DNA of 64,000 bases from Mesotoga prima MesG1.Ag.4.2 (lineage in GTDB: Bacteria > Thermotogota > Thermotogae > Petrotogales > Kosmotogaceae), in contig NC_017934.1 of NCBI RefSeq assembly GCF_000147715.2, forward strand, positions 1,674,001-1,738,000, given 5' to 3'. Made by a program: the position numbers and the translations under genes. The notes beneath the pieces were generated by a model. It was not told the DNA's origin. It was given only the letters and a program-made list of their open reading frames with translations, and did not search any database. Numbering within the stretch: the first letter of the stretch is position 1; each line of letters begins with the position of its first letter. This document shows positions 28,053 through 59,954 of the stretch, piece after piece.

Positions 28053-28880
28053 ACCATCACCTCCAGCAAGTAATATGATATCATGAATTCATATTTCTTA
28101 TGAATGATGTTTTTTCATCAACTATACTGCTGAAGCGATCAGTTATAAGATCTACGAAGTTTTTTTAAAAGCAATTTTGTTCAATAGGAACGGCTTCTCG
28201 TTCATGCGCAGAGAGGCCTTTTTCAAGACGAGGCGAGAAAGAGCAATGTAGAGACGTTCGCTGTGCTCACGAGAAGGCGAGAAATAGAAAAGCCAGTCTG
28301 CTGGCGCAGGCCAGTCAGGCTCCGCTTGGCCAGAAAACGTTGCACGCTGAAGCTGATGAAACCACGTTATCAGTGAACAGTCCTCCGTTCCCCGCCGAGA
28401 CTGCAAAACAAGTTCGGGATGACAATGTTAGGCGATCACGAAAACATCACATCACGTCATCTGAACTTGATTCAGAATCTCGATGATCAAAGAGCTGCTG
28501 CACGCTAAAATCAAGAGCCCGCTGAACGCCGGGAAGAGCCGTCCTTCGCTGACCGTCCAAGAGCATGAACCCGTCCTTCGGAAAGACTGGTTCTTCGTTC
28601 CGACGCTGCGCGTCCAGGTTGTTCGTTCTTGGAACAGATCCCGGATCAAGTCCGGGATGACCCTGAACAGAGGCATTTCAGGGCAGGCTCAGTGGGATGA
28701 CAACTGACCGTTATTCCGAAAACGCCTAATTCCGTCATTCCGACAAAGCTACTGGTCGGAATCTCTATAGTATTGCTTCATGGCTCTCCTCGGCGAACGG
28801 AGAACCGCTCAACGGTTAACCAGGTTCTCTTGCTCTTACGAACCTGCTACCTGCTACCCCCAACCACGGTCTTACAACTG
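28053..28880. repeat. Gene-free region made of dispersed repeats
   Basis: No credible gene. Segments recur elsewhere in the window: GACGTTCGCTG...CACGAGAAGGCGAGAAA (again near 40005 and 62120), CGCTTGGCCAGAAAACGTTG (39880), AAGAGCCGTCCTTCG...CCGTCCAAGAGCATG (38904, 39530, 62760 and later) and GTCATTCCGACAAAGCTCCTGGTCGG (36685, 40305, 62425). Many carry short inverted repeats. The stretch just upstream of the AbrB gene contains palindromes ATGAATTCAT and TGATATCA that could be its operator. Confidence 0.7.
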
Positions 28881-43600: not shown

Positions 43601-43707
43601 CAGGTCACAGCTGTTTCCATACCACTATGGTTCTTACGCAACTCACCTACCACCCGGACAACTCCATTTTCCCAACTGTTTCCATACCACTATGGTTCTT
43701 ACGCAAC
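40655..43707 (-). CRISPR. Main CRISPR array, 46 repeats and 45 spacers
   Basis: A 30-base repeat, on the plus strand GTTTCCATACCACTATGG followed by TTCTTACGCAAC, with spacers of about 35-40 bases. Transcription is leftward: the complement ends in ATGGAAAC, the usual 5' handle of type III crRNAs, and a promoter lies at the right end. The left (trailer) end is degenerate: the first repeat is fused to element copy C, and the first two carry CTCACGCAAC in place of CTTACGCAAC; so does the repeat at 41999. Four spacers are extra copies of others (a duplicated block at 41490-41998), leaving about 41 distinct. The complementary core CCATA/TATGG gives the repeat its hairpin. cas6 is not in the window. 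Confidence 0.98.
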
Positions 43708-44384
43708 CGCTTTTATTACAAAGATATTATACAGGTTTTGGGGAGGCAGAATCAACCAACTGGGAAGATCTCGTAAGCGACATCGAATTTACATTTCGGC
43801 GATTCGCTTGGATTTGATTCTTGATGGACGCAGTGTGATGTGGAGGGAGAAGGCGCCGGTATTCTCTAAGGAAGAACGACCGTGAAGAATACCAACGCGA
43901 CACTCCCCAGCAGAAGCTTACAGAAGAAAAGCGCTCCCGATTTCGCTTTCAATCAAATGACCTATCCTCAGTCGAATCTGTGTAAACTGCATAATAATCA
44001 TTCTAAATAGGCCTAGAAGTGTTATTAGGAAATGATTTCATAGGAAGATGGTATACGATCGATCCGACGAGGATTGGTAACGGAATTATTAACTCGGAAA
44101 AAGCTCTATGCAAGGACAACTCAATGCGATCAACAAAATCGGATAAATACACTCCTTAATTTGGGGTTCATCGAAATCGACTTTACGTAATGCGATCCGA
44201 CAATAAGGATAACAAACTAAGTTATATATCTTCGAATTCAAAAGACTTGTAGCCGTTTGATAAAATAGTTGGTCGTGTGTTTGAAAGTGGTTATTTGAAA
44301 TGATAATATTGCGAAGATATGAACCAAGATCGAGAAGGTGACTGCCGCTGAACAGCGGATCTTCAATACCCTCAAAAGCAAAAA
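43708..44384. other. Leader and intergenic region between array and cas genes
   Basis: About 680 bases. The part next to the array is the leader with its promoter. The rest is A/T-rich with no credible gene; a 100-codon minus-strand frame at 44089-44391 overlaps the terminator, has no ribosome site and is rejected. Confidence 0.65.
43726..43755 (-). promoter_or_regulatory. CRISPR array promoter (leader end)
   Basis: On the minus strand a -35 box TTGATT (43750-43755), an 18-base spacer and a perfect -10 box TATAAT (43726-43731) end 18 bases before the first repeat at 43707. This sets the array direction and places the leader, where new spacers enter, at 43708 and to the right. Confidence 0.85.
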
Positions 44385-44454: not shown

Positions 44455-45504
44455 TCAGATACTTATTCTTGTTTTTGTATAGTTTAAACCTGCTTCGTGT
44501 TGCTCTGTTCTGATGTACCTTTCGTATTCGTCGTGATTTCTAAGTATCGTGGCTATTTTGAGGGGCTCTTCCCCGTGTCTTATATAGAATACTCTCACAC
44601 CCTTGGCCGGAAACTTGTAGCACTGGGCATCACCAACATACTCATGAAGCTGATGCTCTGCTTCTGCCTCATTCCTGAGCATCTTTTTGATATATTCCAG
44701 ATAGACTGGATCTTTGTCGATTACTTTCTGTGCTGAGTCGCTTAAGTAGATTTCAGGGTTCGAGACAGTGTATCTCCCCCAGAGAATTTTTCCAAAGTTC
44801 GAGAGATAGACAAGCCCATCTTCTTCAAGAAGTATTTGTGGGACAATTTTGGTGAAAAGCTCATTTCCAAATTCCTTCCTTGCTTCCTCGACAGGAACGC
44901 AGTCGTTATCGACTTTTTCGAAGAAAGAAGAATGTTTCTCCATTATCTCGAAGTCAAAGTTTATCGGGAAGGGAGGAAGCTCCAGCAAGTGAGGGGAGTT
45001 CTCGTAAAGGTAGAACACCCTGGAATCGAAAACTGCCGCAACGATTGTGGTGTACGGAATCAGTGATCTGTATCCTGAGGTGGCATTGAAGTAGTTGTCA
45101 TATGACCATTGTTCGCCGTTATCAAATAGGCCAATAATTAGATCCACGTAATCTGCGATTCCCTTTTTGAAGGCCGTATTCGAATCGTCGGTCAAGCCTT
45201 CGACAACTCTTGTGATGACGTTGATTCCCCTGGATCTGTATAACTCAGTGAGAGCTTCCATGCATGCTTTAGATACATCAGTGTTGGTCGCTATGAAGAT
45301 TAGCAAATCGTCTTTGTTTACGCCGAAGGTTCCGAGCCCGTTGATTTCTGGAGAGATCTTCTTAAGCTCGTCCTCGCTCATCTTTCTGAGATAGCTTACG
45401 ATTGCTGAACTGCTGAGTTCACTGTCTGGGGAAGCATACATTTTCTTAAGGTTGAACCATATCGTTCCACCGACGTTTGTTATTACTCTTCTTTGTCTGC
45501 CCAT
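44455..45504 (-). CDS. CARF protein with RelE-like C-terminal domain (Cami1-like)
   Basis: 349 residues. The N-terminal half is a CARF domain, the sensor of cyclic oligoadenylate in type III systems. It begins with strands and the LLIFIATNTDVSKAC loop, and its second ligand-binding motif is NATSGYRSLIPYTTIVAAVF (about 139-158), as in the APE2256 group of CRISPR-linked proteins; the strand FPINFDFEIMEK follows. The linker helix region (about 185-270) holds no HEPN R-x4-6-H. The C-terminal 80 residues read YKFPAKGVRVFYIRHGEEPL and KIATILRNHDEYERYIR, a beta-hairpin plus helix pattern typical of RelE-family ribonucleases. CARF-RelE proteins (Cami1) cut ribosome-bound mRNA when a cyclic oligoadenylate binds. 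The start overlaps the end of the upstream gene by about 20 bases, so translation is coupled. The RelE assignment is by pattern, the CARF part is firm. Confidence 0.72.
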   Translation of the reverse strand: MGRQRRVITNVGGTIWFNLKKMYASPDSELSSSAIVSYLRKMSEDELKKISPEINGLGTFGVNKDDLLIFIATNTDVSKACMEALTELYRSRGINVITRVVEGLTDDSNTAFKKGIADYVDLIIGLFDNGEQWSYDNYFNATSGYRSLIPYTTIVAAVFDSRVFYLYENSPHLLELPPFPINFDFEIMEKHSSFFEKVDNDCVPVEEARKEFGNELFTKIVPQILLEEDGLVYLSNFGKILWGRYTVSNPEIYLSDSAQKVIDKDPVYLEYIKKMLRNEAEAEHQLHEYVGDAQCYKFPAKGVRVFYIRHGEEPLKIATILRNHDEYERYIRTEQHEAGLNYTKTRISI

Positions 45505-48500
45505 GATTTGCTCTCCGGAAGCTCGACAACGTCACCTACGACATAAGGTTCTTTCTTCTGAGCGTCAATTCCTCTTCTGTCGACCGCGAATACTCTAGTG
45601 ACATCGAGCATCTTAGATTCTAGAACCTCTGCAAATTCACCCGTTACGTATTGCAGGAAGGATGTTCCACCGGCGAGATTTACGGTTATTCTGGATCTGA
45701 TGTCCACCGGGAAGTCCGAGCTCATTCTTCTCATGATGTCTTGAACCTCTTCAAATCCTGTGAATGGATCATTGAAGAGATAAGTGCTGATCTTCTCAAT
45801 ATCGAATCCGGCCTTCATGCATATCTCTGGAATGTTATCTTTACCTGCTTGCGAAGTTATGACTATTACTCTGTCAGGATTCAGCCTTTTAATGAGCGTG
45901 TACAGTACTCCCGGGGATGTGCCGAGAGGAGTAAGCAGTATTTTCTCTGTCAATGGTGTGACCTCCATTTTTATGGTTTTTATTGCGAATTGATTCAGGC
46001 CGGCACGGACGAACTCCTTGACTATGTCCTTCTTAACGCTATCTATGATTCTGATCAATGAATTCATGTCATTTTTGCTTTCTCTCTCTATATTGATACT
46101 CAGGCGGAGAGTGCCATCGGTGTTTCCAAATAGGCTCTTTTCCATGAAGAACCTTGGGTAAACGTAGTTCACCATATTGTGTTTTTCGAAGTGTGGAAAC
46201 TGGACAGCCTTGAAAGAGATCTTTGACAGGAGCTTCAGCCAGTTTGGCATCGTGATCGTACCCTTGCATTCATCGATTCTCTTCCGAATCATTGGGTAGA
46301 GTGTATTCTTTTCTAGCTCACTTGCTTTGTTACTGATTGAGATTGCGAGATCTCTGTTCATTGACTTGTATTCAGAGGCTTCGAAGGACGCTCGCAGCTT
46401 GCCCACTTCACTCACGAGATCGGATACTTCATTCCTAATGAACGGTGAAATCTCCGTGTTGCTTTCGAGTTCCACAGCAAGCGCTTCGATCTCGGTTATT
46501 GTTCTCAAGACGCGTGTCTTGAAATAGTTTGGTTCTACGGTTCTGTCTGACTGAACATCCGTGCCGTCAATAAACTTTAGCCATCTCGCAGCCATTATCG
46601 TTAATTTCTGCCAGTTTTCGTCGGCGAAACTAGCCGCAACCACCTTATCGAGAGGTTCTGGTTCCATCGAAAGCATCCTCACAATATCCTTCAGCTTTCC
46701 GGGTTTTCCGGTAATGGGCATGTACTCTCTGTGGTATCTTGTCACCAGTTTCACGGCAGTCTTTATGTTGTCCCAAGTGTTTTTATTACATGAGTCTGTG
46801 TCAAATGAGTTTTGCTTATCATCGAATAGCCTAAATCTATCATCATCTTCCAGCATCTGATATGAGAGCTCATGATGAAGATCTCTTACTACGCATGGAA
46901 GACTATCTAGAGGCAATATGCGACCGTCTCCAAGTTCGTAGGTTAGTTTTGTGTGACCCAGATCATGAACATTCATCGCAATTGCCAACACGAAATAGAA
47001 CTCGTTTCGCAGTTGCTTTGGGATACCGTTGAGAAAGTTTTCTTCGCCGATAGTATTTATGAGATTGACAGTAAATTCCATAAGCCTTTTACTATGGCGC
47101 TGAGAATGTTCAACGGTCTCGGGTATCTGATCGCCTATCCATTGCAGGGACCAGACTTCTCGAATCATTTTCCGGAGGTAGTTCTTGTAGTTTTCCGTAC
47201 AACTGTAATCATTATCTAGAAGCTTCAAGAAGTCTTCGCCGTACCCGAAGGGAAGGCCTCTAGCTTTTCTATATTTGCTTTCAATGACGTTTAGCGGTAG
47301 AGAACTCGTAAGATAGTCTTCATTGCTGCTTGCGGTATACAGATTTCTGAAAGTCTCCGGGAGCGAGCAATACTCTGAGTATTTCAGATGATTTCTTTCG
47401 AAACTATGTGTTGTGTTCCTAATAAGAATAGAATTGAATGCAGCCAGCGCTTCGTCAATTGCTCCAAAATCCCAGCTTGCTGGAACGGGTGGGAATTTCG
47501 CAAGACTGACTTCTCCTTCGAAGATGTAGAAGAAGGGTAGATTGTTAAAAATACAGTATAGTGAAGCCATAATACCCGGATACTTTTGACCACCCGTAAC
47601 GTCAATCAGAATTTCCTTGTTTGGGTATTCTTCTCGGATTCTGTCAAGGATTTTCCAGATCTCAGTGAAGGCTCTTGAAAGACTCTCTATGTTATCACCT
47701 GTGTAATACATTGGCCTTTTGTGGACATCAATACCATACTTGCTGAAAGCATTTTCTGTAAGCGCCTTAAGAAAGCCATAGATTGCCGGTTCGTCTTCTC
47801 TCGAAAAACCTTCTGGCCTATCCGGAAATACAATGTACTCTACATCTGATATTGAATATCCTGTATTCAATATGTGCTGGATACTATCGGTCTCTGCGGC
47901 TAGGAAACGAATGTCGTTGTAAGAGCACGGATTCTTCAGTACTTCGTTCAGATCACAACTGAGTTCTTCATCGTCGTTGTACTTTTTCTTGTACCTAAGT
48001 ACGCTGTACTCTTTTTCTTTCCGGAATCCTTCGCGTTCGTATTCGTTTCTAAGGTTGCCAAGCTTGTTGAAGAAAGAATTACCCTGCAACGCCACAACGA
48101 CTTGCTCTGGTTTGAGCCTGTTTTCGACATACTGAATGATTTTGAATGCGCTGCTCTCTTCGTGATGTTTGGCAAGTGTCTTGTTCTCATATTTCTTTGA
48201 TTCTTCCTCTGTCAGACCAGTAAGATCTTTCAGAAATTTCCATGAGGAGGCCTCTTCAGAGATGATGCTCCTGTCTTCTTTCCCATCGTTCATTTCGATC
48301 TCAACTAGATACTGGCAATCGCACTTCCATTTCTCGAGAAATTCATCCAGAATCACTTCTTTGATCCCTTTGTTCTTAGGTTCGAGATAATGCCTTATCT
48401 TTACCACGAAGGGAAGTGTTTCCAGGTTCTTGAGATCTACTTCTGTTGGGTCGAGCGAATACTCTCTTTCGATTCTGTCTTTCGAATCCGAGGAACGCTT

Positions 48501-48710
48501 CTTATAAGTCTGAGTCCACACATGGCGCATTCCGGTCTTTTCCGGAACAATCTCTAGACGGACCCGTTCCTCTTCATTTTCTTCACGCATGATATACCAC
48601 TGAATAATGCCTGTTTTTCTTTCTGCCTCTTCCTTAAAAGCAGCAATTGCCTTTTCGTGTGAAGTTCTGTCTAGCAGAAACTTCTCTTCTTTTTCTAGTT
48701 TTTCTGACAT
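45483..48710 (-). CDS. CYTH-CARF-HD-CARF multidomain CRISPR ancillary protein
   Basis: About 1,075 residues (a TTG one codon upstream is possible; GGAGG precedes both; numbering below from the TTG at 48713). Four domains can be read. Residues 1-150: a CYTH domain, the triphosphate-tunnel fold of adenylate cyclases and thiamine triphosphatases, with its ExExK motif at Glu7-Glu9-Lys11 and strands RVRLEIV, RIEREYSLD, KIRHYLEP and LVEIEMNDG. Residues about 200-430: a CARF domain with LIDVTGGQKYPGIMASLYC (Asp371, Gly374-375). Residues about 530-720: an HD phosphohydrolase with His536, His540, His583-Asp584 in VHDLGH, His613-614 and His661 in RYHREY. Residues about 915-1076: a second CARF-like Rossmann domain with LLTPLGTSPGVLYTLI and VNLAGGTSFLQY (Gly1015-1016). 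So the protein can bind cyclic oligoadenylate in two places and has a phosphohydrolase and a triphosphate-binding site. It lies between the helicase gene and the CARF-RelE gene. Confidence 0.8.
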   Translation of the reverse strand: MSEKLEKEEKFLLDRTSHEKAIAAFKEEAERKTGIIQWYIMREENEEERVRLEIVPEKTGMRHVWTQTYKKRSSDSKDRIEREYSLDPTEVDLKNLETLPFVVKIRHYLEPKNKGIKEVILDEFLEKWKCDCQYLVEIEMNDGKEDRSIISEEASSWKFLKDLTGLTEEESKKYENKTLAKHHEESSAFKIIQYVENRLKPEQVVVALQGNSFFNKLGNLRNEYEREGFRKEKEYSVLRYKKKYNDDEELSCDLNEVLKNPCSYNDIRFLAAETDSIQHILNTGYSISDVEYIVFPDRPEGFSREDEPAIYGFLKALTENAFSKYGIDVHKRPMYYTGDNIESLSRAFTEIWKILDRIREEYPNKEILIDVTGGQKYPGIMASLYCIFNNLPFFYIFEGEVSLAKFPPVPASWDFGAIDEALAAFNSILIRNTTHSFERNHLKYSEYCSLPETFRNLYTASSNEDYLTSSLPLNVIESKYRKARGLPFGYGEDFLKLLDNDYSCTENYKNYLRKMIREVWSLQWIGDQIPETVEHSQRHSKRLMEFTVNLINTIGEENFLNGIPKQLRNEFYFVLAIAMNVHDLGHTKLTYELGDGRILPLDSLPCVVRDLHHELSYQMLEDDDRFRLFDDKQNSFDTDSCNKNTWDNIKTAVKLVTRYHREYMPITGKPGKLKDIVRMLSMEPEPLDKVVAASFADENWQKLTIMAARWLKFIDGTDVQSDRTVEPNYFKTRVLRTITEIEALAVELESNTEISPFIRNEVSDLVSEVGKLRASFEASEYKSMNRDLAISISNKASELEKNTLYPMIRKRIDECKGTITMPNWLKLLSKISFKAVQFPHFEKHNMVNYVYPRFFMEKSLFGNTDGTLRLSINIERESKNDMNSLIRIIDSVKKDIVKEFVRAGLNQFAIKTIKMEVTPLTEKILLTPLGTSPGVLYTLIKRLNPDRVIVITSQAGKDNIPEICMKAGFDIEKISTYLFNDPFTGFEEVQDIMRRMSSDFPVDIRSRITVNLAGGTSFLQYVTGEFAEVLESKMLDVTRVFAVDRRGIDAQKKEPYVVGDVVELPESKSWADKEE

Positions 48711-48735
48711 CAAGCGGCCTCCATTTTCTGAAAGA

Positions 48736-48760
48736 AACGGGGCGGGATTTCCGCCCCGTT
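48736..48760 (-). terminator. GC-rich hairpin between helicase and CYTH-CARF genes
   Basis: A perfect 10-base stem AACGGGGCGG/CCGCCCCGTT with a five-base loop, touching the helicase stop codon. On the minus strand it is followed by TCTTTC, a weak U-tract, so it is more likely a partial terminator or message stabiliser than a full stop. Confidence 0.6.
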
Positions 48761-51700
48761 AATAAATTCTACCAAGAAAGTAATTCTCAATGAAATCCCA
48801 TCTCTGGCTGTCATCGAGCTTCATGGTGAAGAAATCGCGCATAATCTGCTCTTCCCTATCGATTCTTCTTCGGATATCTCTCGTTATTTCACAGTAGTAG
48901 TTCTTGAAGTTATTCAGAATGTAATTTCTGTCTGTGCATTTCAAGTGAACAGCACAGCTTTCGCCACCGCTGAACTTGACGTTTGCCATTCCCAAGATGT
49001 CCAAAATGTTTAGTAGACTGGTAATTACTTCTGTGTGTTCATCCTGACCGTTTAGATAGAGTCTGCAAATTCCTTCTTCACAGGGCTCGAGTAACTCTTC
49101 GAGCTTGTTCAACCATCTGTCCTTTGTTATGTTGGGGATGTTCTGGACCGTATAGATGTAATTCCCAATTTCTCCCCGACATTTGAACAGGCCTGTCTGA
49201 AATCTATCACCATTATATGAAACGAAGTTGTTCTTCACGATATTTCTAATTTTTATATCCAGATCCTGCACACCTGTGAGAAGAGATGCCGACTTCACCT
49301 TCGAAATGATCCCGTCGAAGAGGCTCTTCTCATCCATCTGTTTTCTTGCAGAATCTAGGGCGAACTCGCCCAGAATCTCAATGAATCTTGTGAGTTGCTG
49401 TTTTATACTGTCCATATCCTTGATAACTGACATCTCGACAGCAATTTTCGGGATTACCGGTTTTCCTAGAATCTTCGACGGAAATCTCATGAACTGCCAG
49501 ACGAGCTTTCTAAGATTTCTGTCCCTATATAGCCTAGCCCAGAGGGCAGAGATGTCTATCTTGTAAACGGCTCCAACGGATCTGATCTCCTCGTTATGGA
49601 AAAAGCCTTTTCTCGAATAGCCGGCAGATTCTCTGGATATTTCCGGGAAGGATTTCATGAGCTCTTCGGCGTCATCGTTGCTGGCGGTGAAGTAAAGATA
49701 CTGATAGGTTTCTCCCTTTCTAATTAGAATCTGTTTCCCCGTCTTGTTTTCAAGGTCTTTCTGAATGAGGAAGATGGCGACTCTAGCCTTATCCCTTATT
49801 GTTTCCTCATTGTACTTGTCTTTTCCGGTAATGAGGAGATATCTGATGTCGTCCAGGGAGAGAACAATCTCTCCATTCTTGCTCTGCCTTATCAGTGTAC
49901 CGATGTGCTCCATTATGTGTCTCATCTTCCACTGTTCCGGAACGGATATTTTGGAGAGCTTCAGGCTATCTGAAAGGTCTTTCGTATGGAAGTGAGTTGA
50001 AGCCACTGAAGGCCTTCCATCTCTTCCTGCTCTGCCGATTTCCTGGACGTAATCCGCCATGATAGAGGGAACACTGTGGTGAAAGACTTCATCTATATCT
50101 GGAATATCTACTCCCATCCCAAAAGCTTTGGTCGCGATTACCGTTCTGTAGATACCCTTCCTGAAGAGCTCCTGGGTGAGGCGACGTTCCTGGGTCTCGG
50201 TCGGTCCCGTATATCTGCCGACTTTGTTGCGGCACTCTTCGAGATCGGCTATGGCATTGTATATGTTGTGAGCCTGACCGACAAAGGGACAGTAGATAAT
50301 GCTCTTCTTTCCCGACTCGACAAGGTCGATTGCATAATCAATACTGTCTGACAACTTTTGTGCAGTTCTGCAGTCTTTAGAATGTTGATTCAATTCGAAA
50401 CTGTCGATCTTAAACTTGATATTGTCCCTTCGAACATTTGTCATGACAGTCTTTGGATTTTTCAGACAGAGAAGCTTGCTTATTTCAGATATTGTATTCA
50501 GTTCGCCTCCGGAGATGGCCGTGGCGGTAGTGGCCATCACCGGAAAGCTGAGCCTAGATCTAAGGAATCGAAGATCTTCTCCCAGATATCCATAGTCCAC
50601 TCTGAAGGTCTTGCCCCAAGTTGTAACTAGATGAGCCTCATCTACTACAAGAAGACCGATAGACCTTTCGCCGATAATTGAAGATAGAGAGTTTCCCACG
50701 AAGGTTTCAGGAGAAACATACAGAATGGTGATCTCTCCCTTTCTTACTCTTTGAGTGAGTTCACTTTTCTCGTCAAAACTCAGGTCTGAATTCAAAAAGG
50801 CAGCCCCGTTCTCAAAGTATCTCTCGATAAGCCCATTGACCTGATCTTCCATTAGAGCCTTCAGAGGAGTAATGACTACCGTGAGTCTATCCAGATCTCT
50901 CTTCAGAATCTTCGCAGTAAGCTGATAGATAAGGGACTTTCCAGACCCGGTCGAAGCAACAAAGAATAGATCGGAGGGATCTTGCCTGTAGTTCTGATCG
51001 ATCAGATATCTGATCAACTCTTCCTGGCTGACAAGATAATTGCCCGTTTTTCCATAGACTTCATACTCTTTGAATGAATCGAATCCGAAATGCTCCTTCA
51101 ATTCATTCTTGAGGTCTATGCTTCTCGCTTCTTCGCCGGGGCAGTATCCTGTGAAGTCTATTACTTCAACTTCTCTGCCGATAGCCCGAAGCATAGAGAC
51201 CTCTCTATCCACTTCACTCTGCACACTTTCGGCTGGAGAACTCACAATAATTACTTCGTGGTTAGAGCTACTGCTTACAAGCGATACGCCAGCTTCGATC
51301 AAGAATGATTCTAGATTCTTATCGAGGTGGATGCCCGTGCATTTTTTACCCGCTGTGTGATTGAGAAGCTGATCGAGAGTGTTCACTTCAATAGGAGTGA
51401 TTCTTTCGAAAAGCGGAATGGTCTCGGTCTCTGGGAAATCTTTGACAGAAATGAACTGTCCGTCGATATCGAAGAGAGGCATCAGTTCATCTGAGATATT
51501 CTCCCCTGTGTCGATTGAAGCTCTCTCTCCACAATCAACGGCGACCACTTTTCCGAAGTAGCTTTCAAACAGTGGAGCGTACTTTTTTATTACGACGTAT
51601 AGCCATTCAGTGATTACAACCGGAGAGTCGCTGAAATGATCTGCAACTGAAAGAAGCCCTTTGAGAGATTTGATTGTCTGATACCATTTGAAATCTAGAT

Positions 51701-51854
51701 TCACGTCATTTGAGATGGTTTTGAACTCACCTTCAGAAATGCACTTAAGCGTTTCTTTCTTTGCATTTTTCAGGACGATGGTCTTCGCCCCGAGAGTTGT
51801 AGCGTGTTTCACTCTTGAACTCAACAGCGTTTTCAATGGTTCGAGTTCATTCAA
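48759..51854 (-). CDS. RecQ-like superfamily 2 helicase in the CRISPR locus
   Basis: 1,031 residues. The first ~270 residues are not recognised; they contain two or three Rossmann-like strand patterns (SSSSNHEVIIVSSPAES) and may form an extra sensor domain. The helicase core follows: motif I ASTGSGKSLIYQL at about 300, Ia ITPLKALMEDQVNGL, II VVDEAHLVTTWGKTF at about 400, III MATTATA, IV SIIYCPFVGQAHNIY, V ATKAFGMGVDIPDI and VI QEIGRAGRDGRPS at about 600. The G-x-D motif and the aromatic-rich loop after DEAH are typical of RecQ, which unwinds 3' to 5' DNA. After it are about 400 residues of unknown structure with a Cys/His pair. The TTG start has a strong GGAGGTGATTA just upstream. The gene is the first of the ancillary operon, downstream of the cmr operon terminator. 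Confidence 0.85.
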   Translation of the reverse strand: MNELEPLKTLLSSRVKHATTLGAKTIVLKNAKKETLKCISEGEFKTISNDVNLDFKWYQTIKSLKGLLSVADHFSDSPVVITEWLYVVIKKYAPLFESYFGKVVAVDCGERASIDTGENISDELMPLFDIDGQFISVKDFPETETIPLFERITPIEVNTLDQLLNHTAGKKCTGIHLDKNLESFLIEAGVSLVSSSSNHEVIIVSSPAESVQSEVDREVSMLRAIGREVEVIDFTGYCPGEEARSIDLKNELKEHFGFDSFKEYEVYGKTGNYLVSQEELIRYLIDQNYRQDPSDLFFVASTGSGKSLIYQLTAKILKRDLDRLTVVITPLKALMEDQVNGLIERYFENGAAFLNSDLSFDEKSELTQRVRKGEITILYVSPETFVGNSLSSIIGERSIGLLVVDEAHLVTTWGKTFRVDYGYLGEDLRFLRSRLSFPVMATTATAISGGELNTISEISKLLCLKNPKTVMTNVRRDNIKFKIDSFELNQHSKDCRTAQKLSDSIDYAIDLVESGKKSIIYCPFVGQAHNIYNAIADLEECRNKVGRYTGPTETQERRLTQELFRKGIYRTVIATKAFGMGVDIPDIDEVFHHSVPSIMADYVQEIGRAGRDGRPSVASTHFHTKDLSDSLKLSKISVPEQWKMRHIMEHIGTLIRQSKNGEIVLSLDDIRYLLITGKDKYNEETIRDKARVAIFLIQKDLENKTGKQILIRKGETYQYLYFTASNDDAEELMKSFPEISRESAGYSRKGFFHNEEIRSVGAVYKIDISALWARLYRDRNLRKLVWQFMRFPSKILGKPVIPKIAVEMSVIKDMDSIKQQLTRFIEILGEFALDSARKQMDEKSLFDGIISKVKSASLLTGVQDLDIKIRNIVKNNFVSYNGDRFQTGLFKCRGEIGNYIYTVQNIPNITKDRWLNKLEELLEPCEEGICRLYLNGQDEHTEVITSLLNILDILGMANVKFSGGESCAVHLKCTDRNYILNNFKNYYCEITRDIRRRIDREEQIMRDFFTMKLDDSQRWDFIENYFLGRIY

Positions 51855-52250: not shown

Positions 52251-53015
52251 CTAGACCTCTTTGAAAAGCCCATACCCATAAGATGTCTTAGCGCCAAGAC
52301 CAAAGTCACCCAGGAAATTGATCAGTTCTCTAGAGACCTCTTTTCTCAAATTATCTTCAATCTTCTCCTTTTCCAGCACTGAAAACCTGAAGATACTCCC
52401 GTTTGCAATTACCAGGTACTGTACTGGGACAGGGTCATAGTAGTCGTTGGGTGCCTTTTCGTTCTTATCGTCACTATAATAGGGTTGGAAGTGGTTGTTT
52501 ATGATATCAATACCCAGACTGTAGGTCTTAGGGATTACGTCCATGAAAATCAGAGCTCCCTTGATATTGTCATCACCTTCACCAGTCCCAAAAAGAAACT
52601 TGAAATTCTGCTTCAAAGGGCTATTCTCTTCAAGCTCTTGACTTACGTAATGGGAGAAAGCTCCTTTAAATGCACTTGCCGGAATGTACGGAACCCCGTA
52701 GTTTCTCATCAAAGTGAATCCGTTGTCAAATATCGACGGACAACCGGATCCGACCATCAGATACTTCTTCGTTTGGAGTTCTCGATCAAGTACTTTCCGG
52801 AACGATGTAACAATCCTGTCCCTTCTCTCAAGAAGGCTTCTTACCGAGTCACGATCACAATATGAAAATCTATTCATGAGAATTTGAAGCAGACTCGACA
52901 GTTGAGAGGTATCAGTCATACTGTGTTTGCTTATCGGAAAAAGCTTATCGTAATTTAGTGATGAATTCTTAATAGTTCTATTGGCAATGGTCTTAGGATC
53001 AACCATTGTCCTCAC
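52251..53015 (-). CDS. cmr6: Type III-B CRISPR protein Cmr6
   Basis: 254 residues, a RAMP protein of the Cmr complex, which caps the 3' end of the crRNA filament. Recognised by length, by gene position as the last cmr gene, and by the RAMP signatures: YIPASAFKGAFSHYV (first conserved helix, with the family PASAFKG block), LFGTGEGDDNIKGALIFMDV and the C-terminal glycine-rich loop LGDFGLGAKTSYGYG. The region between (LVIANGSIFRFSVLEKE) fits the RAMP core strand. It starts inside the end of cmr5 (a 17-base overlap); an internal ATG at 53006 is an alternative start. Cytoplasmic ribonucleoprotein subunit. Confidence 0.93.
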   Translation of the reverse strand: MRTMVDPKTIANRTIKNSSLNYDKLFPISKHSMTDTSQLSSLLQILMNRFSYCDRDSVRSLLERRDRIVTSFRKVLDRELQTKKYLMVGSGCPSIFDNGFTLMRNYGVPYIPASAFKGAFSHYVSQELEENSPLKQNFKFLFGTGEGDDNIKGALIFMDVIPKTYSLGIDIINNHFQPYYSDDKNEKAPNDYYDPVPVQYLVIANGSIFRFSVLEKEKIEDNLRKEVSRELINFLGDFGLGAKTSYGYGLFKEV

Positions 53016-53352
53016 CTTCTATAAGAATGTCAGCATATCGTCTCAACCATTTCACGGCTTCAAGAACAATCGTCTGAGCCTTGATGTAGTCAAGATCATT
53101 AATCGGATTCATCTCTGTGACATCAGCGATTTCCATTCTTTCTGAAAGCAGACTACTTAAATCAGCCAGTATTTCCTTACTGGAATCTTTATCTCTGACT
53201 TTGTAATATGCAATCGTTCCATAGAGACCATTTTGAAGAAGCATACTACCCAGACCTTTGATCTCGCTTTTGTAGCTTTTCTGGACCTTTTCGCATTTTC
53301 CGAGAATAGAGGAGACTCGCTCCTTAGCCCAATCATTTAGGGAAGGCATCAT
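52999..53352 (-). CDS. cmr5: Type III-B CRISPR protein Cmr5
   Basis: 117 residues, all-helical, the small subunit that lines the minor filament of the Cmr complex beside Cmr2. It has no catalytic residues; it helps hold the target RNA. The sequence NDWAKERVSSILGKCEKVQK and the C-terminal LDYIKAQTIVLEAVKWLRRYADILI match the family, and the last helix is typical. The start overlaps the cmr4 stop as ATGA. Assigned by position, length and helical pattern. Confidence 0.9.
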   Translation of the reverse strand: MMPSLNDWAKERVSSILGKCEKVQKSYKSEIKGLGSMLLQNGLYGTIAYYKVRDKDSSKEILADLSSLLSERMEIADVTEMNPINDLDYIKAQTIVLEAVKWLRRYADILIEGEDNG

Positions 53353-54149
53353 ACCACTTCCTTGACGAAGACAAAGCCCTTTCCCGTGGTCTCTTTTCCG
53401 CCAATTATCATGGTCTTCTCGTCGAGTTCTGAGAGCTTCGACTCACTGCCCTTTGAATAGACAGTCTCTCTTGCGGTGAAGTACAAAACTGAATCTTGGG
53501 GTAGATATTCCTCATACCAAAGTGCTCCGCTCACAACAATGCCCGTTTTCTCATCAATTCTTATTCTAGGTTGGACTTCAGTCATAGTCTTTACTATCTT
53601 GGCGAATAAATCGTCACTTACTAATACAAGATCCCTCTTCAATTTAGTCGCCATATAACTATCGGGTGCACAGCTAGAAAGAAACGCGGCTATGGAAGCC
53701 ACTTCAGGATTCTTTTCGAATTGAAGCTCAAGCTCTTCCAGCATCAAAGACTTTTCGTTGAAATTCTGATCTGCTAGAATTACTTTGCCATTTTGAACGT
53801 CGGGCACCTCTAACTTTTTGCCTGTTGATCTTGCGAATCTCCTCAGAACAATGGGGCAGGTAACCCAAACGAACATCTTTTCGGCAGATCTTACAGGAAA
53901 GAGAAGGATCTTAGCCTCCGAAAACGAGATCTTTCCTGCATCTGTGTTCTCTTCTCCACCTTTTGAAGGCTTGCTTCCAAAGACGGTATCATCTTTGATC
54001 AGTCCAGAAGCTCTTAATGCACCTTTTATTCCTTGAATAACAGGGAAACCAGTTGTCCTCTCCCTTTGTATTGGAAGATCTACAATTCCAACATCTGCAC
54101 CAGTTCCCGCATGAATTTGAGATTCAGCGTACAAACAGAAAGCTTTCAA
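53349..54149 (-). CDS. cmr4: Type III-B CRISPR protein Cmr4
   Basis: About 267 residues. Cmr4 is the backbone subunit that repeats along the crRNA, and its Asp in the early loop cuts target RNA at 6-base steps. The start is typical: LYAESQIHAGTGADVGIVDLPIQRE, in which the conserved Asp of the HAGTGADVGIVD loop is the likely catalytic residue. It continues TTGFPVIQGIKGALRASG, the RAMP glycine-rich start, and ends with GGKETTGKGFVFV. The longest frame starts at 54176, but a TTG at 54149 (or 54155) fits GGGAGG and the upstream stop better; the ATG-like starts are absent. Confidence 0.92.
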   Translation of the reverse strand: MKAFCLYAESQIHAGTGADVGIVDLPIQRERTTGFPVIQGIKGALRASGLIKDDTVFGSKPSKGGEENTDAGKISFSEAKILLFPVRSAEKMFVWVTCPIVLRRFARSTGKKLEVPDVQNGKVILADQNFNEKSLMLEELELQFEKNPEVASIAAFLSSCAPDSYMATKLKRDLVLVSDDLFAKIVKTMTEVQPRIRIDEKTGIVVSGALWYEEYLPQDSVLYFTARETVYSKGSESKLSELDEKTMIIGGKETTGKGFVFVKEVV

Positions 54150-54151
54150 CT

Positions 54152-55207
54152 TCAATCCCTCCCTATATAATCCCAATCTACCGTAAAGTATTTACCATAG
54201 CCAAAATCTTGCGATTCGCTGCTAATGTTTTGGATGTTATCAAGTGTTCCTTCAAGATAATAGACTGTTCCAGGTGCGACATAATGCTTTATTGGCTTAG
54301 GTTGATTTTTTGCAAGATCCCAACCGCTTACAGCGATCTTTCTCTGAATGTTCGCTGACTTTATGTCGCAGCCGGCAATTTTCATGTCAGAAGGAAGAGA
54401 CCCGTTTGAAAAGACTGATGGGGTAACGAGACATATTGCGGTTTTTGAACTCTGAGAAACATTGAAGATTTCAGTCTCGATGGTGTTCACATCTACTTCT
54501 GCTGCCCTGGTCTTTCCTCCTATGAATACATTTGATAACCCGGAAATTGTCTTTGCGGTGTATTCATCTGCAAAAACAAAGAAGCCTGCACCCGGTTTGA
54601 ACCTGTAGTAAGAGAGAGTATAGAGCATGCTCTCTTCGGCATTCTTTCTTTCTCTTTCCAGAGCAATGCCAACTTTGCTTTCTACCTGATAAAGCTTCTG
54701 AGAAATCTCTTTGCTTTGAAGAATCGAGAATGGAAGCTTTCTCTGCAAGTTCGAAACTTCGTTCATTTCTATCAAGCTGCCGTCGAAAGTTTCAATACCT
54801 TCGACTGAAGAAGGGATCCAAGTAAGCTTCAGGGTTTTTCCATTGATCTCCGTTTCAACGGAGCAGTGTGGCATCATCAGTTTGAATTCGCCACCCTCTT
54901 CCACTCGATAAATCCCATTTGGAGAAGGAAAGTAATGTCTAATTTCGGAGTTCACCTGATTGAATATAAACGGTCCCCAAATTCTTAACGAGCCTGGGTT
55001 TTCGCTATCCCCAACAATCTCTTTGAGTTCTGAAGAGAGATTCAAAGGATTCTCTCCGGCCTTCTTTATCAGAGCTGTTTTGATAGCTCCAAGGAAGGTC
55101 TCAATCTTTGGAAGTCCTGTCTTAGCATCGCCTCCAGATTGAAAGACGGTGCTTTCTCTGAAACAAATCCAATCTTCCGGAGTAAAATAAACTGCATTTA
55201 GCTTCAT
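54152..55207 (-). CDS. cmr3: Type III-B CRISPR protein Cmr3
   Basis: 351 residues, a RAMP protein with two ferredoxin-like halves that binds the 5' handle of the crRNA and joins Cmr2 and Cmr4. The start FTPEDWICFRESTVFQSGGDAKTGLPK is typical: the Cmr3 family begins with a strand and a DxxxFRE-like motif, and the glycine-rich loop GLPKIETFLGAIKTAL follows. The second half has FADEYTAKTISGLSNVFIGGKTRAAEV, in which the family's GGKxRxA motif is seen, and it ends SAVSGWDLAKNQPKPIKHYVAPG. The ATG overlaps the stop of cmr2 by 4 bases. Confidence 0.93.
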   Translation of the reverse strand: MKLNAVYFTPEDWICFRESTVFQSGGDAKTGLPKIETFLGAIKTALIKKAGENPLNLSSELKEIVGDSENPGSLRIWGPFIFNQVNSEIRHYFPSPNGIYRVEEGGEFKLMMPHCSVETEINGKTLKLTWIPSSVEGIETFDGSLIEMNEVSNLQRKLPFSILQSKEISQKLYQVESKVGIALERERKNAEESMLYTLSYYRFKPGAGFFVFADEYTAKTISGLSNVFIGGKTRAAEVDVNTIETEIFNVSQSSKTAICLVTPSVFSNGSLPSDMKIAGCDIKSANIQRKIAVSGWDLAKNQPKPIKHYVAPGTVYYLEGTLDNIQNISSESQDFGYGKYFTVDWDYIGRD

Positions 55208-57576
55208 CTGCCATCACCTCTCAGAAGAAAGTCTTGAACAAGGAGCAGATCAACCGCCCTTTTACGCGCCTCAAAGAGATCACTATTTTCCTCGGTAATT
55301 GCTTCAATTCCTTTTTCCAGGTCAATCATTTTACGGAAGTAGTTTTTAAACATTCTTTCAAAAGACCCGTCATCTTCTTTTCTCGATCCAGCTTTCTTTA
55401 GCACATACGGAATATACTTGTTCACGTATTCGTCATTAGATAGAATCAGGTCATCGCCGAAGAGCTTTCTTAGGCTTCTAGAGCCAAAACCAGACGAGTC
55501 CATTTTCTTGATCATTTCTCGCAGGCTCTTAATTGTGTTAAAGCTTCCATCTTTGGTTGACCACTTAGCTCCGTTTCGACTGATCTGACCTGAACGCCTT
55601 ACAATAGACACAACAAAGCTGTCTCGTCCAAGCCCGTCCTTTGCAATGTGCTCAGATTCACGGGCGATCCTTAGAGCCTGGCTCAAGGGGAACTTCTTGT
55701 TAACGACTGCTATTCCTGCGCTCATTGTGGCTTTCCATCCCATCATAGGAGAGTGGGGTTTGCCTTTTATCCAGAGCATTTCATCTTTGAACTGAAGTTT
55801 GCCTGCGGGAGAATCAAGCTCAACGTCTCCGGTTCCAGAGTACATCCTTCTTATTTCGTCAGCACACTCGAGAACAGATACCGCTGGCAGGAAGGCAAGA
55901 ACATCGTCTCCGCCGGAATATACAAGCTCTCCCCCGTGCTTTTCAACAGCCAGCTGCACGAGCGAGGAGAAGATATTCAGGGTTCTGGATACCGTTCTGT
56001 GATAGGCCGGTTGCACAGTCTTCCTCATGAGTATGTAGTCTTTCATTTTTGTTGGAAGATCGCTAGAGACTATGGCCGTTCGTAAAGGTTCAGCTATTAC
56101 TTCAGTGATCTGAGGTGCATACTCTCCACCAATCCATTTGCCCATTCTGTCTCCGTCCATAAGGAGAATCGCGTAATAGCTGTTCTTATAGCTCTCTGGC
56201 ATGTTACCAGTAAACTCGATGAACTTCTGTTCATTCTTGCCGGCAAATTCATCTACAGACGGGAACTTCTCATTTATCTCTGAAGCGTATAGACGTTTCA
56301 CAGCATTGACTGCGTTCAAGTGGTCTGTCTTCTCTCCATCTTTTAGTTTGAAGATCGCCTTCATATCTCCGTTGAACTGATCGCCTTGGAGAGTTTTGCC
56401 ATTGACAGAAGAGTTATCGGTAAAGTGGCTAAAAGTTCTCAACGTTTTTCTTGCATCTGCGCGGCTCCTTAAAAGTCTGTACGAGTATGAGTAAAGCGCA
56501 CCGGCATTTGGTTTGTGAGCGCCGTGCTGGGTAGACAAGGAATTCAAATTATCGATTTCATCTTTTATTCCCGAATCATTATATAGATTGCTGATAATCT
56601 CCTTTGCGTTTTCGATTTCAATAAGCTCTTGGCTTGTTGTGAAAACCTCGGGGAAAGTATCCAGCTGCATCTGCAAATTAGTCTCGTCAAGAGGTTTGCC
56701 TGCCTTCAACGAGACACTATAAATCTCTTTCCAGCCATCCTTTATAGCTTTCTCAACGTTTTTCAGAGTCTCTTTTACTTCACTTGTTGGAACTATTGCA
56801 ACAAATCTGTTTGGTAAGGAAGCGACTCTAGTTGAAGGTTTGGGAACTTTAGAATCAACTGTGAACTTCACTCCCCATTCTGACAGAGACTTTTTCACGA
56901 AAGCTATGTTTCTGAGCGATGGAAATATCACGCAGTCGAAACCGTATTTCTGCCCTACATACTCTATTCCTTTATAAGTTATCAACGACAAGAGATAGCT
57001 TCCGCTCCAGAGATCCATGGTCTTTCTCGCTGCAGCGATGAAACTCTGAACTGGCCCCACAGATACGCTGATCAAACTTGCCTTGATCTTCCCGTTTTCA
57101 ATAGTCCCTGCTAGGGAAGACGTTGAATCAAGGTGATCAACGATCGAGTGATTGGGGATTCTCGTATCGGCAGGAAGAAACGCCGATCCTTCCATCATAT
57201 CGGGTAGCTGCCACCATAAGGCATGGAACAGGTTCTCTTTCTTATTTCCTTCTGAAATCACTCTGAGATTAGCCATGAACTGAGATCTGGCGCTATCCAA
57301 ATTCGGTAGATGTTTCAGAACATCGAGTTTGCTACTCGAGAGAGAATGAACAAACCCACCTGTATCATCCAACGAGACTCTGACTTGATTGCTCTTTTCC
57401 CAGGGAATTGCAAGTCTATCCATTGCACTTGCAATCCAGTCTTCTTCTTTGACCTTGTCAGGAGAAATTCCTAAGGCTTTGAGAATCTCAGCAGAGCTGC
57501 TTTCATGACCTCTTATGTCCATTGCTTTGAAAAGGGGATCGTGCATAAGAGCAATTATCTTCTTTTCCCAGTTCAT
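55204..57576 (-). CDS. cmr2: Type III-B CRISPR protein Cmr2 (Cas10)
   Basis: About 790 residues from an ATG at 57576, which has AAAGGGGG upstream; the longer reading frame to 57603 has none. Cas10 is the signal-making subunit of the complex: when target RNA is bound, the Palm domain joins ATP into cyclic oligoadenylate. The catalytic motif GGDD is intact at residues 555-558 in VYSGGDDVLAFLPA. The N-terminus carries MHDPLFKAMDIRGHE, the HD-like segment, in which a metal-binding HD pair is present but later motifs are not obvious, so DNA cutting by this domain is uncertain. The zinc/Palm-1 region begins around residue 180 (LISVSVGPVQSFIAAARKTMDLWSG, cut here to its parts). The start overlaps the cmr1 stop as ATGA. 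Confidence 0.96.
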   Translation of the reverse strand: MNWEKKIIALMHDPLFKAMDIRGHESSSAEILKALGISPDKVKEEDWIASAMDRLAIPWEKSNQVRVSLDDTGGFVHSLSSSKLDVLKHLPNLDSARSQFMANLRVISEGNKKENLFHALWWQLPDMMEGSAFLPADTRIPNHSIVDHLDSTSSLAGTIENGKIKASLISVSVGPVQSFIAAARKTMDLWSGSYLLSLITYKGIEYVGQKYGFDCVIFPSLRNIAFVKKSLSEWGVKFTVDSKVPKPSTRVASLPNRFVAIVPTSEVKETLKNVEKAIKDGWKEIYSVSLKAGKPLDETNLQMQLDTFPEVFTTSQELIEIENAKEIISNLYNDSGIKDEIDNLNSLSTQHGAHKPNAGALYSYSYRLLRSRADARKTLRTFSHFTDNSSVNGKTLQGDQFNGDMKAIFKLKDGEKTDHLNAVNAVKRLYASEINEKFPSVDEFAGKNEQKFIEFTGNMPESYKNSYYAILLMDGDRMGKWIGGEYAPQITEVIAEPLRTAIVSSDLPTKMKDYILMRKTVQPAYHRTVSRTLNIFSSLVQLAVEKHGGELVYSGGDDVLAFLPAVSVLECADEIRRMYSGTGDVELDSPAGKLQFKDEMLWIKGKPHSPMMGWKATMSAGIAVVNKKFPLSQALRIARESEHIAKDGLGRDSFVVSIVRRSGQISRNGAKWSTKDGSFNTIKSLREMIKKMDSSGFGSRSLRKLFGDDLILSNDEYVNKYIPYVLKKAGSRKEDDGSFERMFKNYFRKMIDLEKGIEAITEENSDLFEARKRAVDLLLVQDFLLRGDGR

Positions 57577-58808
57577 TCGATAACCCCCTTTAAAAGATTC
57601 CATAGTTCTTCGAAGTTCTCGTTTCCGAGTATTGGATAAGGTTCGCCTTTTACAATTGCATAAATCACAGGTCTGTCATTGTTGTCTCTATCCGGAGATA
57701 TCTTGCTTGCCATGAGCAGAATTCTGGCAAAGTAAGAGTTGTTCAATGCTTTGTGTACAGATATGAATATCGGAGATGCTTTTCTACCCGAACTATTGTT
57801 GCTGTTCGAAACAGTGGCCGTCCCCTTTCCGGTTGTTCCAGGGTATTCCCCGAATCTTTGATAGATAATAGGTAACCCCATTATGCTTGTACGCATCACA
57901 AATTCTCTTGAAGGTGCAGTCCTTTCGAAATAAGCAGCCCTCAATGGTTCAAGATTGTCTCCCGGCTGACCGTACTTTCTAAGTTCATTAAGCTTCAATC
58001 TCGAATACTTGGATACTGGGTCTCCGTCCTTAGTTCTCTGACCAGTAAGCGCTCCGATAATGTCCTTCCAGGATCGCGATTTGATCAGGGAATTCATTTC
58101 TCTAGATCTGGCCAATGTAGGAAAGTCGTAAGGGTACAAATTTGGTTCTTCATTAATGAGTCGGAACTTCCTTTCGTCAGGATCCAGTTCGCTGATCATC
58201 TTCAATAGAAGTGATTTTGAAGTTGAATACTGTTCGCCTACAGAATCCTCTTCCACTCCTTTGGCCTTACTGATCGCAAAACTGCCAAAGCCGTCTCTTG
58301 CCTTTGCTCCAAAGCCTGAGTAGTTGCTTATGAGGCTCATAAGAGAATCAGTAACAGTCTTTTGAACCGGCAAGATTGAACTCGAATACCGGATCCTAAT
58401 TGTGAAACTTTGATCTGGCATCATGTAGGAAAAAGAAGGATTGTCTCCTTTCAGCTCATAAGTTCCAAACAATGCATTGCGAAAAAACCTGTCACTTGAT
58501 TCCACCAAAGTGTTAACCGATTCTTCAATGTCGTCACCATAGGAGACAGTCAGTGAGAATGGTGACTTCTTTTCTTGCGAACCGAACATTAGCCCTTCCA
58601 GATAATGAAGAGCTGCAAAAGGCTTCTTCGAACCATCCAGCCAATTGGGATCTATAACACAAGGAACCAGTGCCCTGAACCAGAAACGCATTACTCCCTT
58701 GACGCTTTGAGGTCTAAGTTCAAATCGCCAGGATTTTCCTGTTTTCGAATACATGCTTCTTGAAAGCATTGGGGTTATAGTTTTGCAAACGAAAGTTGAT
58801 TTTTGCAA
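57573..58808 (-). CDS. cmr1: Type III-B CRISPR protein Cmr1
   Basis: 411 residues, the RAMP protein at the 3' end of the Cmr crRNA filament. The N-terminus is typical: FVCKTITPMLSRSMYSKTGKSWRFELRPQSVKGVMRFWFRAL, here shown only by its cores ITPMLSR and RPQSVKGVMRFWFRAL. The glycine-rich loop GLMFGSQEKKSPFSLTVSY follows, and NYSGFGAKARDGFGSF is the family's second-half signature. The ATG at 58808 lies 15 bases downstream of the stop of the CARF gene and has GGAGGGAAGAAG upstream. First of the six cmr genes. Confidence 0.95.
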   Translation of the reverse strand: MQKSTFVCKTITPMLSRSMYSKTGKSWRFELRPQSVKGVMRFWFRALVPCVIDPNWLDGSKKPFAALHYLEGLMFGSQEKKSPFSLTVSYGDDIEESVNTLVESSDRFFRNALFGTYELKGDNPSFSYMMPDQSFTIRIRYSSSILPVQKTVTDSLMSLISNYSGFGAKARDGFGSFAISKAKGVEEDSVGEQYSTSKSLLLKMISELDPDERKFRLINEEPNLYPYDFPTLARSREMNSLIKSRSWKDIIGALTGQRTKDGDPVSKYSRLKLNELRKYGQPGDNLEPLRAAYFERTAPSREFVMRTSIMGLPIIYQRFGEYPGTTGKGTATVSNSNNSSGRKASPIFISVHKALNNSYFARILLMASKISPDRDNNDRPVIYAIVKGEPYPILGNENFEELWNLLKGVIE

Positions 58809-58823: not shown

Positions 58824-59954
58824 CTATTTCAATAATCTCTTTATCTCTTCAACCGCTTTTTCTAGTTCATATGGATTTCTAGCTGTCGTTCGAATTTCCA
58901 TGTACAATGTTCCGCCTCTAGTACTGTATCTTGCCTTAATGATTTCGCCGAACTGCTTGCAGACGAATTCATTTCTGTCAAATTTTTGGCTTGAGCCCCT
59001 CACCAATACTTCTTCGATGAATGGAATGGATACCAGCTTGTCTATGAATGATTGATTGTCCGAAATCATCTTGTTTGAATGGGCTTCTTTGGAGCTTTTC
59101 TTTAGTCTGTTCTCTATCGGTACAGAGCTATCCTTAAGACTCGCTTCAACATCCAGCTTTCCAAGACTCAATCTGCAGGCTTGGACAAAAACCTCGCCCA
59201 TCGGACTCAGTGAAAGCATGTGACCTACTGAATCCTGTTCGCGGTCTATGAGAAGCTTAATTTCTGCGGGAAGCGAACTGAAGTTGATCCTGTAATCGTA
59301 CTCTCTTTCCAGATCTTTTTCGTTTATTACGGAATTCATTTCCAGAGTGTCGAGAAGGCCTTTGTTCTCGAGCCAAAGCTCAACATCTAGAGACAGAGGC
59401 ATTGGAGGCAGCTTTATAACGCCGTCAAATGTCTCGAACCGATAATAAACAGGGATCTTAACCCCCATCCCGAAAGCTAGAGAAAGCGCGATCTGAGCCT
59501 TGTATCCTCCTGTAGCGTTGATAAGTAGATTATCCATGTGATGTTTGTATATCTCGGCAATTCTCTTCACTAGATTACGTAAGCCTTTGTTCTGGAAATC
59601 GTCTGGCCTTGAGTCATCAAGATCGGATATTGCATTTACGGAGACATTTTTGAAGCTCATATCTTTCGAGCAATCAAAGAATAATTTGAGAGCGTCACCG
59701 ATCTTCTTGCCTTCTTCGGTATCCGAGGTAAGAAAATATAAGTAGTCTCTCGAAGACAAAACTGACTGAGAAAGTATGGACGCTAGAGAGTTAATCTCAG
59801 CTCCAAACTCGCGATTCCCGATCGGGTCATTCAAGTTAAGGAGACGATCAGTAATTCCACTCGAAGTCATATTGCACAGTTTTCTCAAGCTTGCTCCGAC
59901 TGTGCAGATAATCGTGTTTATGATGGTTTCCCCCTGTCTTCCCTCAAAGTGCAA
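58824..59954 (-). CDS. CARF protein at the head of the cmr operon
   Basis: Up to 376 residues. The N-terminal half is a CARF domain of the APE2256 type: IICTVGASLRKL, the strand DYLYFLTSDTEEGKKIGDAL, and the ligand-binding INATGGYKAQIALSLAFGMG (about residue 145), then YYRFETFDGVIKLPPMPLSLD, nearly matching the CARF-RelE protein at the other end of the locus. The C-terminal half (about 230-376) has SLSPMGEVFV, a basic patch and then VSIPFIEEVLV, FGEIIKARYSTRGGTLYMEI and RTTARNPYELEKAVEEIKRLL. I find no HEPN R-x4-6-H; the strand-helix order could be another RelE-like or PD-(D/E)XK-like nuclease. The start is uncertain: the TTG at 59954 has no good ribosome site, and a GGGGG precedes a non-standard ATC/ATA further on. 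Confidence 0.72.
   Translation of the reverse strand: MHFEGRQGETIINTIICTVGASLRKLCNMTSSGITDRLLNLNDPIGNREFGAEINSLASILSQSVLSSRDYLYFLTSDTEEGKKIGDALKLFFDCSKDMSFKNVSVNAISDLDDSRPDDFQNKGLRNLVKRIAEIYKHHMDNLLINATGGYKAQIALSLAFGMGVKIPVYYRFETFDGVIKLPPMPLSLDVELWLENKGLLDTLEMNSVINEKDLEREYDYRINFSSLPAEIKLLIDREQDSVGHMLSLSPMGEVFVQACRLSLGKLDVEASLKDSSVPIENRLKKSSKEAHSNKMISDNQSFIDKLVSIPFIEEVLVRGSSQKFDRNEFVCKQFGEIIKARYSTRGGTLYMEIRTTARNPYELEKAVEEIKRLLK

Follow-up and report, generated by a model that had tools for sequence, protein, structure and literature searches.

Fusions of CARF with HD domains, and double-CARF fusions, were listed by Makarova 2014 (PMC4012209), and Altae-Tran 2023 (PMC10910872) names CYTH, HD, CARF and FleQ in the legend of Fig. 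6C and describes a "two-component RNAPol + CARF" system, UAS-58. Chp, a CARF-HAD phosphatase, binds cA4 and dephosphorylates ATP and dATP (PMC12715507). The three-domain CYTH-CARF-HD design is already described, and PADLOC holds a model for it, CARF7--CARF_CYTH_HD (PDLC01929). The model presumably takes its name from the CARF classification that Makarova and colleagues published in 2020. The literature searched, some of it available in part, contained two papers that mention CYTH together with CARF, and no functional study of the CYTH-CARF-HD family.

Here we describe a variant of this family that is encoded in the window (the whole stretch of 64,000 nucleotides of Mesotoga prima DNA that was analysed). 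The PADLOC model matches amino acids 102-912 of the protein (E=1e-147), and the N-terminal CYTH domain was recovered with hhalign (E=9e-13), while an extra CARF domain at amino acids 922-1076 departs from the domain content of the family without excluding membership. The preliminary description of this DNA had found the four-domain order unfamiliar; this stands for the added C-terminal CARF, which lies outside the named model, but not for CYTH-CARF-HD, which is a named family. We read the protein as an ancillary type III protein of the CARF-HD kind, a metal phosphohydrolase gated by cyclic oligoadenylate (cOA), with a built-in predicted triphosphatase and a probable off-switch, and we put the probability of this reading at about one half.

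Organization of the locus

The locus is a type III-B (Cmr) CRISPR locus, and the protein has the domain order CYTH, CARF, HD and second CARF (Table 1). Its gene belongs to a run on one strand that encodes a CARF7-type protein, Cmr1, Cmr2/Cas10, Cmr3-Cmr6, a RecQ-like helicase, the protein itself and a CARF7-RelE-type protein, and that is followed by the CRISPR array. Synthesis of cOA is expected of Cmr2/Cas10, since its GGDD motif is kept, and the protein is encoded together with this GGDD-bearing Cas10, as expected of a CARF effector of type III CRISPR systems. The ATG at 48710 is a likelier start than the TTG at 48713, because GGAGG lies 7 nt upstream of it.

Table 1. Features of the locus, in window positions.
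Feature	Position	Strand	Remarks
CRISPR array	39164..43708		~50 repeats of GTTTCCATACCACTATGGTTCTTACGCAAC (+ strand reading)
CARF7-RelE-type CARF protein	44455..45504	-	start overlaps end of CYTH-CARF-HD-CARF gene by 22 nt
CYTH-CARF-HD-CARF protein gene	45483..48713	-	1076 aa from TTG 48713
Second (C-terminal) CARF domain	45486..45950	-	~aa 922-1076; in relatives also a gene of its own or the C-terminal end of Csx1
HD phosphohydrolase domain (predicted)	46340..47160	-	~aa 519-791; nearest Pfam family HD-CE
First CARF domain, CARF7 / APE2256 type	47420..48108	-	~aa 203-431; PADLOC CARF7 models, PDB 3qyf
CYTH domain, NeuTTM inorganic-triphosphatase type (predicted)	48159..48713	-	aa 1-185; hhalign, shuffles, residue table
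RecQ/DEAD-like helicase	48759..51854	-	PADLOC C3a193 "poss. alt. Cas3"; 45 nt upstream of CYTH-CARF-HD-CARF gene
Cmr6	52251..53015	-	
Cmr5	52999..53352	-	
Cmr4	53349..54176	-	
Cmr3	54152..55207	-	
Cmr2/Cas10	55204..57603	-	GGDD cyclase motif intact
Cmr1	57573..58808	-	
CARF7-type protein	58824..59954	-	CARF_DUF2103/RelE model

In genome G029 (L079/L096), a copy with 98% identity to the protein adjoins a compact GGDD protein and other RAMP-like genes rather than Cmr genes, and that genome has no match to the Cas10 model PDLC01292, which suggests a transfer of the accessory genes between type III modules. Of the changes that separate the protein from this copy, 18 are synonymous and 20 non-synonymous. 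They all fall within the HD, linker and second CARF parts, and the pN/pS of 0.29 reflects constraint over few sites. Two AlphaFold predictions, made with the window and L028 sequences only as input, gave a mean pLDDT of 36 and 39, too low to be of use.

The surroundings of the array are repetitive. Group II introns with reverse transcriptases are located at 28880-30727 and 36803-38650; the two are almost identical to each other, and the second ends beside the array. A 281-nt element is present in three copies that are 81-99% identical (38904-39184, 39527-39807 and 40389-40669), in or beside the first repeats of the array. A 166-nt segment of the array is duplicated identically (41460-41625 and 41662-41827), and part of a third copy lies at 41932, which suggests a recent rearrangement of the array.

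The first CARF domain and the HD domain

The motifs listed in the preliminary description (ExExK, IDVTGGQK, the HD ligand set, LTPLGTSPG and NLAGGTS) are all read in the reading frame, and the four domains that it had proposed are recovered here. The first CARF domain contains IDVTGGQK at amino acids 370-377 and is recognized by the CARF7 models of PADLOC. The family profile also matches the CARF protein 3qyf in the PDB (E=1.6e-12), which we take to be a Sulfolobus protein of the ring nuclease group.

The HD domain contains the motifs EHSxxH (535-540), VHDLGH (582-587), RDLHHE (610-615) and RYHRE (659-663), followed by FIDGTDVQSDR at amino acids 714-724. None of the seven metal ligands (H536, H540, H583, D584, H587, H613 and H661) varies among the 21 aligned relatives, and D716 and D719 are likewise invariant in every member that is long enough to include them. 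The domain is predicted to be a metal-dependent phosphohydrolase. The Pfam family HD-CE (PF24391) scores 24.9 bits in the protein itself, just under the cut-off of 27, and matches 20 of the 21 members at E<0.01 (best 2.3e-13). Placement with hhalign against dNTPase, SpoT and HD-GYP sets gave no clear nearest set; the match to the dNTPase profile had a score of 24.6 (E=0.01) across 11 columns only.

The CYTH domain

The tunnel residues of CYTH enzymes are complete in the protein (E7, E9, K11, R50, R52, K71, R80, E82, K105, R107, D123, E138 and E140, of which the first three form the ExExK motif), and it also contains the closing YxNKxLA motif. The full residue set is present in 12 of the 13 members checked, among which the window sequence and L013 are near-identical. 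Pfam CYTH does not match any single family member, so that the assignment of this domain rests on profile comparison; a search of the PDB with the profile of the CYTH part alone gave chance matches only. A comparison with CYTH proteins of the YgiF type gave a weak score of 24.3, with shuffles of up to 19.1, and the NeuTTM type was tried next. Against 11 NeuTTM (NE1496)-type proteins the family profile reached a score of 81.5 in hhalign (Prob 97.8, E=9.2e-13, 143 columns), while 200 column-shuffles scored at most 19.2 and a reversed control 13.9. The NE1496 query is identical to PDB 2fbl/3typ across 151 residues.

Both NE1496 and YgiF hydrolyse inorganic triphosphate specifically (PMC3440374). 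CYTH cyclases are marked by HFxxxxExExK, with HF four residues ahead of ExExK (PMC8233210). The protein contains ExExK, RxR, K, KxR and ExE, as in triphosphate tunnel enzymes (TTM), and lacks both the HF motif of the cyclases and the WxRxR of thiamine triphosphatases. On these residues and profiles, the domain belongs to the NeuTTM type of inorganic triphosphatase and is predicted to be active. An ordinary Pfam CYTH protein is found in none of the 103 Thermotogota genomes, while 11 of 14 control genomes are positive, which makes a resident housekeeping gene an improbable source of the domain.

Distribution among the Thermotogota

To place the protein among its relatives, we used a sample of 103 genomes from one phylum, the Thermotogota. 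The CARF7--CARF_CYTH_HD model matches in 22 of these genomes, 20 of which keep the HD part; the two left out (G003 and G056) match in the CARF part only, while G054, which is counted, matches over a short C-terminal stretch at the edge of a contig. The alignment of the CARF-HD family (A1) contains 21 sequences. Six members (L004, L005, L019, L020, L021 and L026) lack the CYTH domain, and another, L009, has an eroded one in a genome that also encodes an intact copy, L025. As the HD ligands do not vary among the 21 sequences and the CYTH domain is optional, CARF-HD is taken to be the core of the family. No relatives of the protein were found in the plasmids and viral contigs searched, and a scan of genome contigs with narrow patterns found one.

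The second CARF domain, with LTPLGTSPG at about amino acid 926 and NLAGGTS at about 1013, is homologous to the C-terminal domain of CARF2--CARF_HEPN_CARF (E=1e-41). It is fused to CARF-HD only in genomes G000, G029, G020 and G032. In the Kosmotogaceae MAG G026 (L028), it is a separate ORF of 151 amino acids that begins three bases past the HD stop codon, and it also stands alone in G038, where it lies ~3 kb from the CYTH gene, and in G041. The homologs in other genera form the C-terminal ends of reading frames of 460-560 amino acids; the only such frame scanned, L085 in G002, matches the Csx1-type model CARF2--CARF_HEPN_CARF at 1e-184. These comparisons mark the last CARF as an exchangeable module, encoded as a separate gene or as a Csx1-type C-terminus. 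In the neighbourhoods read, the RecQ-like helicase gene adjoins the CARF-HD gene only in the four genomes with the fusion.

Besides forms with CARF and HEPN, PADLOC lists Csx1 forms that are named for Csx3, Csx16 or Csx20, and Crn3/Csx3, Csx16 and Csx20 are ring nucleases (PMC12409355). Because these parallel Csx1 forms carry ring nucleases, the second CARF domain is, by its position, probably a fused off-switch and a candidate ring nuclease.

Co-occurrence with a one-chain RNA polymerase

In the neighbourhoods of seven relatives, a one-chain beta-beta' RNA polymerase is encoded in a trio with a linker protein and an AAA+ protein of the sigma54 type. The polymerase has a length of 1230-1474 amino acids with an invariant ADFDGD motif, and the two proteins scanned contain Rpb2_6, Rpb1_2 and Rpb1_5. 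The linker protein consists of 220-300 amino acids, with no Pfam match in the two scanned, and the AAA+ protein of 460-480. The polymerase adjoins or sits near the CARF-HD gene in these seven loci. A polymerase of this kind is encoded at L028:6103-9993. In the window genome, the trio starts at position 1754020 of C1, outside the window and ~31 kb from the gene, and is followed by Cas6 (polymerase at L095:6015-9893). The trio is often located near CRISPR-cas genes.

A polymerase profile at E<1e-150 identifies the protein in 27 of the 103 genomes, including all 20 with CARF-HD (Fisher P=8.6e-16) and seven without it. Among the 41 genomes with a Cas10 match, it is present in 16 of 16 genomes with CARF-HD vs 1 of 25 others (P=1.6e-10), while Cas10 itself shows a weaker association (P=6e-5). 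Stratified within ten genera, the association has P=6.7e-7, with genomes taken as independent within strata and genus membership drawn from an incomplete list of genomes. No sigma54 match was obtained in three genomes with the polymerase (G006, G007 and G054), which suggests that the AAA+ gene has no strict requirement for sigma54 or that the factor escaped the search. The CARF-HD family is thus never without a dedicated RNA polymerase in these 103 genomes of one phylum.

Proposed mechanism and alternatives

In the proposed mechanism, target RNA would cause Cas10, with its intact GGDD motif, to make cOA, which may be bound by the CARF7 domain. Binding would switch on the HD domain, the sole catalytic part kept in every member, which would then destroy a phosphate-containing metabolite, while the CYTH domain is predicted to be an active triphosphate tunnel enzyme of the inorganic-triphosphatase type. 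HD enzymes of the SAMHD1/Dgt type release PPPi from (d)NTPs, and in the version that we prefer, although we rate it as less likely than not, the HD domain would be such a (d)NTP triphosphohydrolase and the CYTH domain would split the PPPi that it releases. As the HD domain was not placed near the dNTPases, it is the type of the CYTH domain that suggests this coupling. As a fused regulator of cOA, the last CARF domain would most probably be a ring nuclease and end the signal, and the protein would work in the same genetic setting as the one-chain RNA polymerase/AAA+ module. Against this reading, the CYTH domain is dispensable in the family, and a protein that depletes NTPs would make a strange partner for an RNA polymerase, unless it acts on dNTP.

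The main rival explanation starts from the polymerase, which would make RNA with a 5'-triphosphate. The CYTH domain would then be an RNA triphosphatase, as Cet1-like tunnel enzymes are, and the HD domain would trim or hydrolyse an end or a nucleotide under CARF control. The presence of the polymerase in every family genome and its position in the seven loci fit this explanation, and tunnel enzymes include RNA triphosphatases (PMC8233210). We nevertheless consider it unlikely, since inorganic triphosphate is the substrate of the closest CYTH relative that has been characterised, several members without the CYTH domain still have the polymerase, seven genomes have the polymerase but no CARF-HD, and the polymerase is ~31 kb off in the window genome. 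It is likewise doubtful that CARF-HD is the obligate partner of a CRISPR-controlled transcription machine composed of the polymerase, the linker and the sigma54-type AAA+ protein, in which CYTH-HD would be a two-step triphosphate destroyer or an RNA-end processor acting with the polymerase in infection, and the second CARF a timer.

The HD domain might instead destroy oligoadenylate, cyclic or linear, that the CARF domains have bound, in which case the whole protein would be an off-switch and not an effector. The resemblance of the first CARF to 3qyf, the two CARF domains of the protein and the presence of two more CARF proteins in the gene run would suit such a role. In the characterised CARF ring nucleases, however, the CARF site itself does the cutting, we know of no HD ring nuclease, and the CYTH domain would be left unexplained, which makes this explanation quite improbable. 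The preliminary description had also considered that the CYTH domain makes cyclic AMP, and this or another cyclic nucleotide would provide a second signal. CYTH domains are partly named after the CyaB cyclase, but the HF motif (PMC8233210) is absent, the central arginine that is replaced in cyclases is kept (R50/R52), and the profile match is to the inorganic triphosphatase group; the cyclase reading was rejected by motif, and its probability is very low. With the present results, what was an entry in a domain catalogue becomes two questions for the bench, namely how a CRISPR alarm affects a private RNA polymerase and which phosphate compound is destroyed.

Comparison with known systems

In the content and order of its CYTH part, CARF7 and HD, the protein agrees with CARF7--CARF_CYTH_HD, but this model ends at amino acid 912, and the C-terminal CARF of the protein and of three relatives lies beyond it. 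The C-terminal CARF is homologous to that of the Csx1-type CARF2--CARF_HEPN_CARF (PDLC01838-01840), the effector of which is a HEPN RNase instead of HD and CYTH. Similar to NeuTTM NE1496, the CYTH domain contains the tunnel residues and the closing YxN..LA motif, although NeuTTM is a free-standing enzyme of 150 amino acids without CARF or HD. Chp provides a precedent for a CARF-controlled phosphatase, but differs in its HAD fold, its association with the membrane and its lack of CYTH, HD and a second CARF. UAS-58 is a possible counterpart of the family, in which CARF-HD co-occurs strictly with the one-chain polymerase and an AAA+ gene of the sigma54 type; the polymerase, linked in the loci of seven relatives, is not adjacent in the window genome (~31 kb). 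What is new relative to these systems is the type of the CYTH domain, the invariant HD beside an optional CYTH domain, the exchangeable last CARF and the co-occurrence with the polymerase.
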